A stretch of DNA of 42,560 bases, taken from IMG/VR virus record IMGVR_UViG_3300044691_000280, positions 1-42,560 of that record. The stretch is one strand, 5' to 3'. This DNA comes from a virus. The position numbers and the translations under genes are program-made. A model generated the notes under the pieces. That model made no database searches. It was given only the letters and a program-made list of their open reading frames with translations, and was not told the origin of the DNA. Positions 7,667-18,357 of the stretch are shown in pieces (positions within the stretch are counted from its first letter, which is position 1; every line of letters starts with the position of its first letter).

Positions 7667-8125
7667 TTAGGTGGTGCGATGTGGAGCGGACAGGTCATCA
7701 TCAATCAGTTTATTAACATAAGCCGAAAAGCTCATGTAAGCTAACTTCCCAGCATCCTCAATTACTTTTATTTTGGTATCCAAAAGAGTAACGTTCTTTT
7801 GCGTTGCCGGTTGACCTGCGATTTCCTTAGCCATCAATTTTTCTTTAATACCTATTTTTTTATTACAAAGAATAAACCCTTTATCTTCAAAGTGTTTTAT
7901 CCAAAACTTTTCAGCCTTTGAAAAATCAGAAAATTGGCAATGTTGAAGTATATTAAATATTGGCAACCTGCCTGATTTTATTATTCTCTTTATATTTTTT
8001 CTAAGTTTAGTATTATGGGAACCGTAAAGGTGCTGTTTTTCGCGCTGATCTATATTTTTGGTTTTGCCAACATATAAAACATCATTTGTTTCCGGGTCGA
8101 CTATGCTATATATAACGTTGCCCAT
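7667..8125 (-). CDS. GIY-YIG nuclease with RHH-like C-terminus
   Basis: The 152-residue protein opens with a GIY-YIG core: IYSI (5-8), LYVGKT (17-22), R28 in the helix after it, and E72 in AEKFWI, the expected metal ligand. The C-terminal part (about 110-145) reads VTLLDTKIKVIEDAG, then MSFSAYVNKLIDDD, which resembles a ribbon-helix-helix fold with a strand followed by two helices. Its start overlaps the stop of a separate RHH gene (TAATG). Known GIY-YIG proteins cut DNA as homing, repair or restriction nucleases; it is not inside an intron here. A site-directed nuclease using the RHH part for binding is inference. Confidence 0.8.
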   Translation of the reverse strand: MGNVIYSIVDPETNDVLYVGKTKNIDQREKQHLYGSHNTKLRKNIKRIIKSGRLPIFNILQHCQFSDFSKAEKFWIKHFEDKGFILCNKKIGIKEKLMAKEIAGQPATQKNVTLLDTKIKVIEDAGKLAYMSFSAYVNKLIDDDLSAPHRTT

Positions 8126-8551: not shown

Positions 8552-8736
8552 CACCCCCAACCCAACAATCCATAACCGACCTCTACAATGAGTTAGTAGA
8601 CACGCGCGACAGAATACAGAATGCTCAGCTATACGAAGATGCCAAAACAGGCATTATTGGCGGCCTTGAAATGGCATTAGACAGGATAGCGATTAAGTTT
8701 TTTGTGGTTTGTCCGAAGGAGCATAGGAAGATATGA
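8548..8736 (+). CDS. 62-aa helical hypothetical protein
   Basis: A helical, charged protein (YNELVDTRDRIQNAQLYEDA) coupled by ATGA overlaps to both neighbours. No motif allows a function call. Confidence 0.6.
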   Translation: MTPPTQQSITDLYNELVDTRDRIQNAQLYEDAKTGIIGGLEMALDRIAIKFFVVCPKEHRKI

Positions 8737-8957
8737 GCAAGCTACAGGTAGGACAACGGATAAGGGTGTTTGAGGTGGTAAGGAACGGCAGCTATGGCGG
8801 CAATGAGATATATGCCGAGCATCACGAAACAGACTACAGTCATAATGAATACGGAACGGACTTAATATCTGAATACTCGCATCCATTAGCGGCATTACAT
8901 GTAAACGCATCTCACATGAAACAAGTCGGCACATTAATAATTAAGAAGATAAAATGA
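8733..8957 (+). CDS. 74-aa hypothetical protein
   Basis: Strand-rich start (GQRIRVFEVVRNG) suggests a small barrel. The stop codon overlaps the first bases of the tRNA-like gene by 2 nt, so gene and RNA share a transcript. Function unknown. Confidence 0.6.
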   Translation: MSKLQVGQRIRVFEVVRNGSYGGNEIYAEHHETDYSHNEYGTDLISEYSHPLAALHVNASHMKQVGTLIIKKIK

Positions 8958-9113
8958 ACAGATGGCGGAATTGGTAGACGCTTAAAATATGATAAGATAC
9001 ACGAGATAGGATAAGTCCGAGAAGATAAGTGAGAAATAAATCGGCCATTGTGAATCAATGATCTTTTATATTATTCAGTTTGTATCGTGCAGGTTCGAGT
9101 CCTGCTCTGTTCA
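8956..9113 (+). tRNA. tRNA-Leu-like gene with oversized middle region
   Basis: Outer parts are those of a class II tRNA. The acceptor stem is GAACAGA (8956-8962) with TCTGTTC (9106-9112) and discriminator A9113. The D-arm runs GCGGAATTGGTAGACGC (8965-8981). The T-arm is GCAGG-TTCGAGT-CCTGC (9089-9105). CCA is not encoded. The D-arm sequence is typical of tRNA-Leu. Total length is 158 nt against about 85 for a normal tRNA-Leu. No ordinary 17-nt anticodon arm is found. TAAAA (8983-8987) can pair with TTTTA (9064-9068) exactly where anticodon-stem bases 27-31 would be, leaving about 76 nt in the loop. Alternatively GATAC (8996-9000) pairs GTATC (9082-9086). The insert also holds CATTG-TGAAT-CAATG (9046-9060). 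It may be an intron-bearing tRNA, a decayed tRNA or a tRNA-like RNA. Confidence 0.55.
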
Positions 9114-9153
9114 CTTACTCACCCCCTAACAAGGATGGCTATAATTGATAAAC

Positions 9154-9318
9154 TTAAAGTCCATCATTAAAGACATTAAACCTTTTATACTTTCTTTCCC
9201 CATTAGTCCAAAGACCACAGTGGGAGAGTACAGCCCTTATTACGCATCCTAAGATACGTTCGTCTGCCTTTTGATAGTGGACTACCTGGAAGTTTTTGAT
9301 GTGTTTACGTGTGGTCAT
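9154..9318 (-). CDS. 54-aa basic hypothetical protein
   Basis: A lysine/arginine-rich small protein (MTTRKHIKNFQVVHY, NGERKYKRFNVF). Its ATG overlaps the stop of the RusA gene (ATGA), so it is coupled to it and is the last gene of the long minus-strand array. It may bind nucleic acid because of its charge; no family recognised. Confidence 0.55.
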   Translation of the reverse strand: MTTRKHIKNFQVVHYQKADERILGCVIRAVLSHCGLWTNGERKYKRFNVFNDGL

Positions 9319-9995
9319 AAGCTTTCAATTTTAAATGAAATATATTCCTGTCCTTTTTTAACAATTGCCTTCCTTACAGTTGCTTCCATAATCCGGCTAT
9401 CGTTGAACTTATATTTCTCCTGTATAATATCTTGGAACGGCTTAACGGGGTTATCCCAATCTCCACCATTGCTGCTCAATCCAAATTCGTAGTATACGCG
9501 TAATAAGCCCTCTGGAATGATTAAATTGTTTGGCAGCAGTAAAGATACCGCCAAAGCATATTGAGTGTACTGGTCGGTCTTAAATCGCCTCCCTTTCCAA
9601 ACATCGTTTACGGACAGTGGCTTAATATTTACCTTTGTCTTTTCGGTGAGTATTTTACAACTATAGAATTTAGCTACATCTATCAATTCCTGCAACAATT
9701 TATCATCTTTGATATAGGTACGCACAGGGGTGTTAATAGTAGCAACTGGGTCAATGCCTAAACTCATTTGGTGCTTAATATGCATAGCGTATGCTGTAGC
9801 CAATCCCCTATCTTTTGTTTGGCGTTCTGTGCCCGATAGATATTCCCCTACAACCTGTTTTATGGTTACCATATTATTAGCCTCTATCTTTTCTACTTTT
9901 TTAGCTACTAAAGACTTTACCGGCACATAAACACCATCTTTTTCAACTAACCCTAATTTCTTTAATTGTTCTACGGAGTATTGGACGCGACTCAT
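9315..9995 (-). CDS. RusA-like Holliday junction resolvase with N-terminal extension
   Basis: Residues about 115-226 match the RusA family, metal-dependent resolvases of four-way junctions in phage recombination. Seen are PLSVNDVWKGRR (126-137), the acidic signature GDWDNPVKPFQDI with D179 and D181, then NDSRI with D199, and a following KKGQEYISFKIE strand. RusA itself is about 120 residues, so the first ~110 residues are an extra domain. Its start (VEQLKKLGLVEKDGVYVPV) looks like a small helix-turn-strand region. The start overlaps the 9992-10216 gene by ATGA. It likely works with the NinB-like, HNH and SSB-like proteins of this phage. Confidence 0.8.
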   Translation of the reverse strand: MSRVQYSVEQLKKLGLVEKDGVYVPVKSLVAKKVEKIEANNMVTIKQVVGEYLSGTERQTKDRGLATAYAMHIKHQMSLGIDPVATINTPVRTYIKDDKLLQELIDVAKFYSCKILTEKTKVNIKPLSVNDVWKGRRFKTDQYTQYALAVSLLLPNNLIIPEGLLRVYYEFGLSSNGGDWDNPVKPFQDIIQEKYKFNDSRIMEATVRKAIVKKGQEYISFKIESL

Positions 9996-10410: not shown

Positions 10411-10592
10411 ATTAATTGTATTTTGGTTTCTATTAATAATTTATTGTAAGCCCGTATAATATCAGCAATAACATAAGTAAGGTTACAGCTTCCACCTTCA
10501 AAGTCTGCGGATATAACGCCAAACTGATTTTGTTGCCACCCTTCTTTAAGTAGTTCGGTATGGATGAACTTTTCTAATTCTGTATGGTTCAT
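10407..10592 (-). CDS. 61-aa hypothetical protein
   Basis: A small helical protein (ELEKFIHTELLKEGWQ) coupled on both sides by ATGA overlaps, immediately downstream of the HNH-like gene. No family recognised. Confidence 0.55.
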   Translation of the reverse strand: MNHTELEKFIHTELLKEGWQQNQFGVISADFEGGSCNLTYVIADIIRAYNKLLIETKIQLI

Positions 10593-11035
10593 ATTGCTTT
10601 ATTTAATCTGTCTAAGCTTAACCCTCTTGCCTTTGCTTCTGCTGGGTTGCGTTCGATATACTCATGGCATACCATGCAACAAGGTAGCCAAAACCTTTCG
10701 TCCAGTAGATATTCACCCATCCTTCCAATTTTATGATGAACCGTAGTTGCCTCAAACTTGCAATTAGTCAAAGCTGCTTCACATATCCTATAGTTCTTTA
10801 AATATACTTTCCTTTGTGCGCTATAAGCGGCATTAAGTTTCATCTGTCTTGTACTTACAGCTTTTATAGCTTTAGTTGAATATACTTTAAAAGGTTTAGC
10901 TACCTTACCGTTAGTTGTCTGTTTAAGCATACTTTTAGCCCTTTGGTGGCATTCTTTACAAGCAGAAGGAGTTGACACCCATAGGTACGACTTCTCTCCG
11001 CACGTACCACAAATCTTAAGTTTAGGTTGTATCAT
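10589..11035 (-). CDS. HNH-type nuclease with zinc ribbon (NinG-like?)
   Basis: The 148-residue protein begins with a zinc ribbon (C9xxC12, C26xxC29). The C-terminal half has an HNH-like site: HH (100-101) in the beta-hairpin, then CCMVCHEYIERNP with H124, and paired cysteines C85/C92 and C120/C123 that can hold a structural zinc. Such proteins act as nicking or recombination nucleases; NinG/Rap of lambdoid phages has a comparable Cys-rich plan, and closeness to RusA fits recombination. The exact subfamily is not certain. Confidence 0.65.
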   Translation of the reverse strand: MIQPKLKICGTCGEKSYLWVSTPSACKECHQRAKSMLKQTTNGKVAKPFKVYSTKAIKAVSTRQMKLNAAYSAQRKVYLKNYRICEAALTNCKFEATTVHHKIGRMGEYLLDERFWLPCCMVCHEYIERNPAEAKARGLSLDRLNKAI

Positions 11036-16968: not shown

Positions 16969-18357
16969 TTAATTTCTTTGTAACCAGTTATATTCTAATT
17001 CTTGCGGTACTATGGTAGGGCGTGCAAATTTAGCCGCATCTATAGCACTTGTAAAACTACTGTCCGTGGGGATTAAATAATTAGTTCCAGTACTCGGACA
17101 GCACATTTTTATCCATGCCAACGGCACATTCGTACGCCCATTTAAATCTTCTTCTTCTTTAAAACATTCAGTTGTTTTGTATAAAATCAATTCTTCTACA
17201 CTTCCATCCCCATGAATAACTGATTTCTTATCTGCCTCTTTCGCACCTAAAAAGGTAAGCATTGTACCCTCTCCTTTGGACTCAATTACTTCATAAATAC
17301 CGGCTTTTATATCTTCGTTTTCTTCATTTATAAATTGTTCTTTAGTTATTTCAGAAGAAAATATCCATTCAGGCATATTGCGCCCATTGATATAATACCC
17401 ATTAAATTTAGTCATATCTGTTGAGTTCGACCATTCAGCGGCGTGGCCATCAGTTCTGTGCATGTCATTATTTTCATTAAGGTGAACCTTTTTAGGGTAT
17501 TTAGATACCACACAAAGCAATTCAGAAAAAATAGCCGAATAGACATTGGATTTTTGATAAAGATCATTCCAGCTATTCAACATTACATTGATAGGCGTGT
17601 CTATTTTTAATTCGTCAGCCAGAAACTTGTAATATCCTCCATATGCGCCGGAATAAACATTTGATGTAAATAGGTAATCTGGATTTTTCGTTTTCAACTG
17701 TGAGTCCAACTGTGAGTCCAACTGTGAGCGCAACTGTGAGTTCAACTGTGAGTCCAACTGTGAGCGCAACTGTGAGTTCAACTGTGAGTTCAACTGTGAG
17801 TACAACTGTGAGCGCAACTGTGAGTCCAACTGTGAGTCCAACTGTGAGTACAACTGTGAGTCCAACTGTGAGTACAACTGTGAGTACAACTGTGAGTCCA
17901 ACTGTGAGTACAACTGTGAGTACAACTGTGAGTCCAACTGTGAGTCCAACTGTGAGTACAACTGTGAGTCCAACTGTGAGTACAACTGTGAGTACAACTG
18001 TGAGTCCAACTGTGAGTACAACTGTGAGTTCAACTGTTTATTTTCTATTTTAGGTATATTCAAGTTCACCTCAATACCATTTCTAATGCAATAAATAGTA
18101 TATATAATCGGTAAAAAAACTTTTTCATTAGCTTTGATATAATTAAAAAATATTTGTGCCTCGTATGGGTTTTCAGCCACTAAGACACATGGTTTTTTAT
18201 ATTTGCATTGTTCATAATTCCAGTCTATAAGCGCAACCGCAGCATCATATTTGAAATTATTATAGCGTTCGCCATCAAATACGCCTTTGGTATATTTGGC
18301 GATATATTCAGGTATTTTAGCAGATATTTCAGGTGTTAAATCGGATAATGTTTTCAT
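16969..18357 (-). CDS. DUF6745-like protein with 28 SQL tetrapeptide repeats
   Basis: The 462-residue protein has three parts. The N-terminus (1-109) includes YNNFKYDAAVALIDWNYEQC and KKPCVLVAENPYEAQ. Residues 110-221 are 28 tandem copies of xSQL, where x is Y, D, N or R. The C-terminal part carries GHAAEWSNSTDMTKFNG and ends LIPTDSSFTSAIDAAKFARP, resembling DUF6745. In the repeat block nine of twelve bases per unit are invariant and all variation is in the first codon (TAC, GAC, AAC or CGC). The array probably changes length by slippage. It may form a solenoid or fibrous spacer. Molecular function is unknown. Confidence 0.65.
   Translation of the reverse strand: MKTLSDLTPEISAKIPEYIAKYTKGVFDGERYNNFKYDAAVALIDWNYEQCKYKKPCVLVAENPYEAQIFFNYIKANEKVFLPIIYTIYCIRNGIEVNLNIPKIENKQLNSQLYSQLDSQLYSQLYSQLDSQLYSQLDSQLDSQLYSQLYSQLDSQLYSQLYSQLDSQLYSQLDSQLDSQLRSQLYSQLNSQLNSQLRSQLDSQLNSQLRSQLDSQLDSQLKTKNPDYLFTSNVYSGAYGGYYKFLADELKIDTPINVMLNSWNDLYQKSNVYSAIFSELLCVVSKYPKKVHLNENNDMHRTDGHAAEWSNSTDMTKFNGYYINGRNMPEWIFSSEITKEQFINEENEDIKAGIYEVIESKGEGTMLTFLGAKEADKKSVIHGDGSVEELILYKTTECFKEEEDLNGRTNVPLAWIKMCCPSTGTNYLIPTDSSFTSAIDAAKFARPTIVPQELEYNWLQRN
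17695..18030 (-). repeat. 12-bp minisatellite, 28 units
   Basis: 28 in-frame units of 12 bp inside the DUF6745-like gene, each encoding xSQL. The order of x from the N-terminus includes a repeated YYDYDD block, showing higher-order duplication. The opposite strand has an open frame over the array, which is only a by-product of the repeat. Confidence 0.95.

Follow-up and report, generated by a model that had tools for sequence, protein, structure and literature searches.

The window, which is the whole 42.6-kb virus record analysed here (42,560 nucleotides, completeness unstated, from a virus of bacteria), contains at positions 8956–9113 a complete tRNA-Leu outer frame that encloses a 107-nt middle and lacks an anticodon arm. 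The segment probably encodes a phage RNA that is tRNA-like and non-decoding, in which the frame of tRNA-Leu scaffolds another structured domain. It has the intact tRNA frame, long middle, missing anticodon arm and tRNA-type end context that define a broad class of phage RNAs, which favors the tRNA mimic that a preliminary description of this DNA had listed among its options. Computation establishes the frame, the existence and conservation of the class, and the end signals that are shared with ordinary tRNAs.

The tRNA-Leu frame and the middle of the window RNA

The acceptor stem, D-arm and T-arm of the window RNA are well formed, as had been described, with 7/7, 3/3 and 5/5 base pairs, respectively. 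Along with the D-arm (GCGGAATTGGTAGACGC) and the T-arm (GCAGGTTCGAGTCCTGC), the elbow residues U8, A14, G18G19 and U48 are present. The RNA also carries A73, the LeuRS discriminator, at A9113. The features of the locus are as follows.

8733–8957, plus strand: small open reading frame of 74 amino acids, unmatched by any family; the RNA starts within its stop codon TGA (8955–8957)
8955, plus strand: U at position -1; the RNase P cut is expected 3' of it
8956–8962, plus strand: 5' strand of the acceptor stem, GAACAGA, paired with TCTGTTC
8963, plus strand: U8
8965–8981, plus strand: D-arm GCG-GAATTGGTAGA-CGC of the tRNA-Leu type, with A14, A15 and G18G19
8982–9088, plus strand: middle of 107 nt, found where a tRNA-Leu has its anticodon and variable arms
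8983–8987, plus strand: TAAAA, which can pair with TTTTA (9064–9068) at the position of the anticodon stem (27–31/39–43)
8996–9086, plus strand: predicted long rod-like variable arm, best nested fold
8996–9001/9081–9086, plus strand: predicted rod helix GATACA/TGTATC
9009–9014/9071–9076, plus strand: predicted rod helix GGATAA/TTATTC
9020–9026/9061–9067, plus strand: predicted rod helix AGAAGAT/ATCTTTT
9088, plus strand: U48, the Levitt partner of A15; U in 127/134 relatives and 58/58 ordinary tRNA-Leu
9089–9105, plus strand: T-arm GCAGG-TTCGAGT-CCTGC
9106–9112, plus strand: 3' strand of the acceptor stem, TCTGTTC, paired with GAACAGA
9113–9116, plus strand: A73 followed by C74, T75 and T76; CCA is not encoded
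9154–9318, minus strand: convergent downstream open reading frame, so that the RNA lies between converging genes

The check with tRNA models that had been proposed found no standard anticodon arm. ARAGORN reports zero tRNAs over the whole window, and the Rfam tRNA model matches only positions 9019–9113, with a wrong 5' half and a score of 24.5 bits (cut-off, 29). The search of the window with Rfam families gave no match beyond tRNA, neither to a group I intron nor to tmRNA, and ARAGORN did not match a tmRNA either. The middle of 107 nt compares with 31–34 nt in most ordinary tRNA-Leu of related contigs, which bears out the estimate of about 73 extra nucleotides.

Both pairings that had been pointed out in the middle, TAAAA/TTTTA and GATAC(A)/(T)GTATC, are located where they had been placed, and the pairing of TAAAA with TTTTA is mutually exclusive with the rod. 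The 20 nt after TTTTA form a stem of only two base pairs and no class II variable arm, and position 33, in the loop next to TAAAA, is A and not U. The TAAAA/TTTTA pairing is judged to be a product of chance. The giant variable arm, proposed initially as the alternative, is the favored fold of the middle according to structure prediction. The predicted rod stops 2 nt short of the T stem, and many relatives are alike in this respect; a 6-bp helix ending at this distance arises in 7% of shuffles of the window middle. The folding energy of the middle is ordinary when compared with shuffles (z about -0.6 to -1.0), and the RNA has no hairpin loop with a 6-nt palindrome. The proposed search for relatives succeeded for the build of the RNA and failed for its middle: the viral contigs yielded no homologue of this middle, and the rod thus has no support from covariation. 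A pattern close to the window frame retrieved two more RNAs with unrelated middles, and searches of the viral contigs with the 226-aa and 74-aa proteins of the window phage returned no close relatives.

Because the stop codon of the 74-aa open reading frame overlaps the start of the RNA, the RNA sits at the 3' end of that gene. The terminase of the window is nearest to those of Bacteroidota phages (Flavobacterium, Cellulophaga and Maribacter) and of MW202828, which is the nearest database phage by terminase. MW202828 encodes an RNA of the alpha subfamily described below, located between converging genes as is the window RNA, and followed by a second short tRNA-like sequence and by a hairpin and T run that resemble a terminator. 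This second sequence (L218, about 637–697) is about 61 nt long, follows the alpha RNA directly, scores 37.2 bits with the Rfam tRNA model, and has a D-arm and a T-arm without an anticodon arm. Elsewhere in the window, segments 7667–8125 and 10589–11035, both on the minus strand and flanking the tRNA-like RNA, show weak similarity to families of homing endonucleases and HNH endonucleases, and a 462-aa open reading frame (16969–18357, minus strand) contains a long run of repeats of the LYSQ/LDSQ type.

A class of phage RNAs without an anticodon arm

The class was retrieved by scanning viral contigs with a pattern of a window-type D-arm, a long gap and a T-arm, and ordinary tandem tRNAs were recognized and removed by curation. 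The curated class comprises at least 159 distinct RNAs from at least 131 contigs. Up to five copies occur in one contig, with nearly the same frame and unrelated middles (L158). Throughout the class, the middles are 46–138 nt long and mostly unrelated between RNAs. The acceptor stem is paired 7/7 (6/7 in a few members) and the T stem 5/5 (4/5 in a few), and the 64 different acceptor sequences are all kept paired. The D-arm belonged to the search patterns, and its conservation is therefore partly a selection effect; acceptor pairing, U48 and the end context were outside the selection criteria. A control scanner that combined a 7/7 acceptor stem, U8, D-arm and T-arm found 232 matches in register in the retrieved loci, compared with 0.0 when the 3' acceptor strand was slid, which excludes chance as the origin of the window's outer frame.

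Structure is kept between related middles. The pairing GTCAAC/GTTGAC of L090 corresponds to ACCAAC/GTTGGT in L133, three acceptor pairs have changed together between L158 and L159, and between L088 and L126 both partners of base pairs have changed in one hairpin and one loop-loop helix. On average, middles of the class fold better than their shuffles (mean z -0.86, standard error 0.12), whereas the genomic control has a z of -0.08. There is an excess of helices that stop 2 nt short of the T stem, and middles are conserved and structured within lineages. Several candidate traits of the whole class were rejected. A pseudoknot between the A-helix and the variable arm is present in some RNAs (24/119 beat all 20 shuffles) and is not general. 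Sequence motifs common to the middles amount to weak k-mer enrichments. No neighbor gene is common to the members, the largest family being found in six contigs, and palindromic loops outside the alpha subfamily number 12 compared with 7.9 expected, with significance in alpha only.

Members are found within tRNA arrays, as tandem copies and among various kinds of genes, and about 60% of the contigs that carry them have no ordinary tRNA in the sequence examined. They occur in a 735-kb phage (L219), in the cultured Leuconostoc phage phiLM33_01 (L213) and in genomes of Bacteroidota (such as Sphingobacterium and Christiangramia); a member from Riemerella adjoins terminase-like genes.

The ends of the class resemble those of tRNAs. 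U-1 is present in 73% of members, C74 in 88% and A76 in 76%, and CCA is rarely encoded. The corresponding values for ordinary tRNAs from contigs of the AGTCAGG type are 70%, 98% (132/135) and 73%. Since U-1, C74 and A76 are shared with ordinary tRNAs of the same phages, we infer that RNase P, the 3' processing of tRNAs and the CCA enzyme act on the RNAs of the class, which are probably cut out and CCA-tailed like tRNAs. The window RNA has both U-1 and C74. A73 is present in 77% of the class, compared with 58/58 ordinary tRNA-Leu, and charging with leucine is therefore not a universal requirement; it is possible, judging from the sequences, that many members including the window RNA could be charged.

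The best-defined part of the class is the alpha subfamily, which was found by a pattern with a shorter D-loop and a 3' motif and includes 48 loci with 35 distinct sequences. Instead of an anticodon arm, these RNAs have a helix of 8 bp that encloses an inner hairpin. The 27-pair structure of alpha is paired in 97.8% of cells, with double changes in 19/27 pairs and none of 500 shuffles as good; a de novo MAFFT alignment of the first 14 members, made independently of a model, has double changes in 16/27 pairs. A73 is present in all aligned members. The inner loops vary in sequence, and a 6-nt palindrome occurs in 12 of the 18 distinct loops (1.5 expected; 0/3000 shuffles), which suggests that alpha RNAs may form homodimers through self-complementary loop-loop contacts. 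The window RNA does not have the 8-bp helix with inner hairpin at the position of the anticodon stem and is not a member of alpha. It scores 37.8 bits with the alpha model (R1), compared with 85–131 bits for true members; ordinary T4 tRNAs reach 34–35 bits, and the match of the window RNA thus reflects its tRNA frame only. Three alpha RNAs (L266 at 3151, L267 at 168 and L281 at 1316) have a hairpin-like expansion of the D-loop by 20–30 nt.

Relation to known RNAs

The closest known counterpart of the window RNA is T4 rnaC (species 1 RNA), a stable phage RNA of 139 nt from a tRNA region, with a terminal stem, a T-arm, a long variable arm and a long arm at the anticodon position. Its function is unknown (PMC3014915), and it is expressed late and is visible on Northern blots (PMC9697503). 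Homologues of rnaC in 720 phage records support this fold by double changes in 12/44 pairs, with 0/500 shuffles as good; the fold includes a pairing between the loops of the variable arm and the central arm, for which there is little support because just one loop-loop pair varies. A loop-loop layout of the rnaC type is suggested in some members of the class (L088/L126, L115 and L118), and the class may share its architecture with rnaC. Of the features of the rnaC type, the window RNA has the paired ends and the T-arm, and by analogy it may work like rnaC. Unlike the window RNA, which has the full tRNA-Leu frame and is predicted to fold into one rod and not two arms, rnaC lacks a recognizable D-arm and has two U-U mismatches in the acceptor stem of most homologues. 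There is no sequence relation between them: the alpha model gives rnaC just 17.5 bits, and a search of phage records with window positions 8700–9400 matched no T4-like phage. By sequence, the window RNA is outside the T4 rnaC family.

With tRNA-Leu, a class II elongator tRNA, the window RNA shares the acceptor stem, D-arm, T-arm, U8, A14, A15-U48, A73 and the U-1/C74 context; however, its long middle and missing anticodon arm do not allow decoding. Extra sequence between the D-arm and T-arm is also found in tRNA-Leu genes with group I introns from cyanobacteria and phages, but the known introns of this kind leave the anticodon arm in place and are longer, about 200 nt or more. The likeness to tmRNA consists of the tRNA-like ends, the absence of an anticodon and the structured insert. 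By contrast with tmRNA, the window RNA has a complete D-arm, is of the Leu and not the Ala type, and probably has no conserved reading frame. Engineered tRNA scaffolds for recombinant RNA, reportedly developed by Ponchon and Dardel, are similar in that the anticodon part gives way to a foreign structured RNA, which gains stability through tRNA processing; they are man-made, whereas the arrangement in the window and the class is natural and evolving. A literature search limited to open-access papers found no description of anticodon-less tRNA-like RNAs of phages, which does not prove their absence from the literature. The class is thus apparently undescribed, although T4 provides a precedent for stable phage RNAs that resemble tRNAs.

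Alternative explanations and proposed function

The TAAAA/TTTTA stem lies exactly at positions 27–31/39–43, and a novel small intron was among the options of the preliminary description. The anticodon-loop insert of a tRNA-Leu would in this case be removed by a self-splicing or protein-dependent route of unknown type. A layout with this stem and a class II variable arm was sought among the relatives from phages and bacteria and fits 6/119, compared with 0.7 expected, with good variable arms in L007, L035, L101, L197 and others. However, most relatives entirely lack such geometry, no group I or other known intron family matches, and the window RNA itself fails on its 2-bp variable stem and its A at position 33, which makes splicing very unlikely here. 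Decay of a tRNA-Leu gene after a random insertion, the other option raised at the outset, would agree with a middle that has no known homologue and folds no better than its shuffles, and with the lack of ordinary tRNAs found by ARAGORN in the window phage. Against it, every element of the frame is intact, including A14, A15, U8, U48, A73, U-1 and C74, and the class is widespread, with compensated acceptors, conserved U48 and middles that are conserved and covary within lineages. The compensatory changes in 19/27 base pairs of alpha rule out decay for the class, and a pseudogene is a very improbable description of the window RNA as well. A remnant of an integration site was also considered but would leave the intact 5' half unexplained.

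The position of the RNA, starting in the stop codon of the upstream gene and preceding a convergent one, invites the explanation that it is a cis-acting element with a largely irrelevant middle. Its tRNA-like fold would then label or shield the 3' end of the mRNA from the upstream gene, or direct the cleavage of that mRNA. The RNA of MW202828 is placed alike, before a terminator-like hairpin. Terminator-like sites are not enriched after members of the class (14 compared with 23 expected), so that another 3'-end device would be useful. Nevertheless, the diverse locations of members, which include tRNA arrays and tandem copies, together with conserved and structured middles that a pure end tag does not need, renders this explanation unlikely. 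The plan of an anticodon-less tRNA-like RNA with an insert, combined with A73 in the window RNA, would also suit a miniature tmRNA that is charged with leucine and rescues stalled ribosomes by a short reading frame in its middle. This is hardly credible, given the tRNA-type D-arm and the absence of tmRNA matches in the window; moreover, a 2-nt insertion breaks the sole long frame of the middle in the L103/L160 lineage.

Other tRNA genes with inserts were encountered in the course of the analysis. The tRNA-Leu genes in L007 (8714), L035 (6383) and L101 (4435), two of them in phage tRNA arrays, have anticodon-loop inserts of 50–75 nt, are reported by ARAGORN as intron-containing, and have inserts too short for known group I introns. 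Contigs L178, L184 and L197 (Trichormus, Paraprochloron and Prochloron) contain arrays of several tRNA isotypes that share the same insert of about 48 nt between the D-arm and T-arm, approximately ATCCTTATTCATTCCTTGCCTxATGGGCCGAAGAATTGAGGATTATCG. It lies apparently in the anticodon loop and would be a small intron or a recurrent mini-insert of cyanobacterial tRNA genes. In another set of tRNAs, long inserts follow the anticodon stem; these are in L047 (7160 and 7408, minus strand), L124 (195 and 2808) and L132 (1642); several of these share AGCCTACAAGC or a close variant near the 3' end and possibly represent another family of tRNA inserts. In the crAss-like phage cr4_1 (L212, about 520–630), there is an unannotated tRNA-like sequence with a D-arm, a T-arm and an apparent 9-nt anticodon loop.

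As a non-decoding tRNA-like RNA, the window RNA would be transcribed together with the upstream gene set, at its end, and cut by the host RNase P between 8955 and 8956. Its 3' end would be trimmed after A9113, and CCA would then be added by the host CCA enzyme. The acceptor stem, the elbow of the D- and T-arms and the A15-U48 pair would fold as in a tRNA and protect the RNA, and the middle would form a long rod that projects where a tRNA has its anticodon and variable arms. Lacking an anticodon, the RNA cannot read codons, and it would act in trans as a stable RNA. Its most likely role within the class, proposed tentatively, is that of a decoy or ligand of a host protein that handles tRNAs. 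A regulator that pairs with other RNAs is a more doubtful role, and a structural role is possible.

The class as a whole may have a wider meaning. It is quite conceivable, though as a combined statement still conjectural, that phages of several host groups keep a large repertoire of non-decoding RNAs with the tRNA-Leu frame, several per genome, which are matured by the tRNA machinery of the host and carry a fast-changing structured cargo. In such a toolkit for counter-defence or host takeover, T4 RNA C would be a distant instance, and at least the alpha RNAs would homodimerize by their loops. If this is true, standard tRNA finders discard or mislabel a widespread class of phage RNAs, whose members they would miss altogether or list as ordinary or intron-containing tRNAs. 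The class would also provide a natural precedent for the scaffolding of functional RNAs by tRNA, and the role of the stable T4 RNA C would become testable by comparison and in cultured phages.
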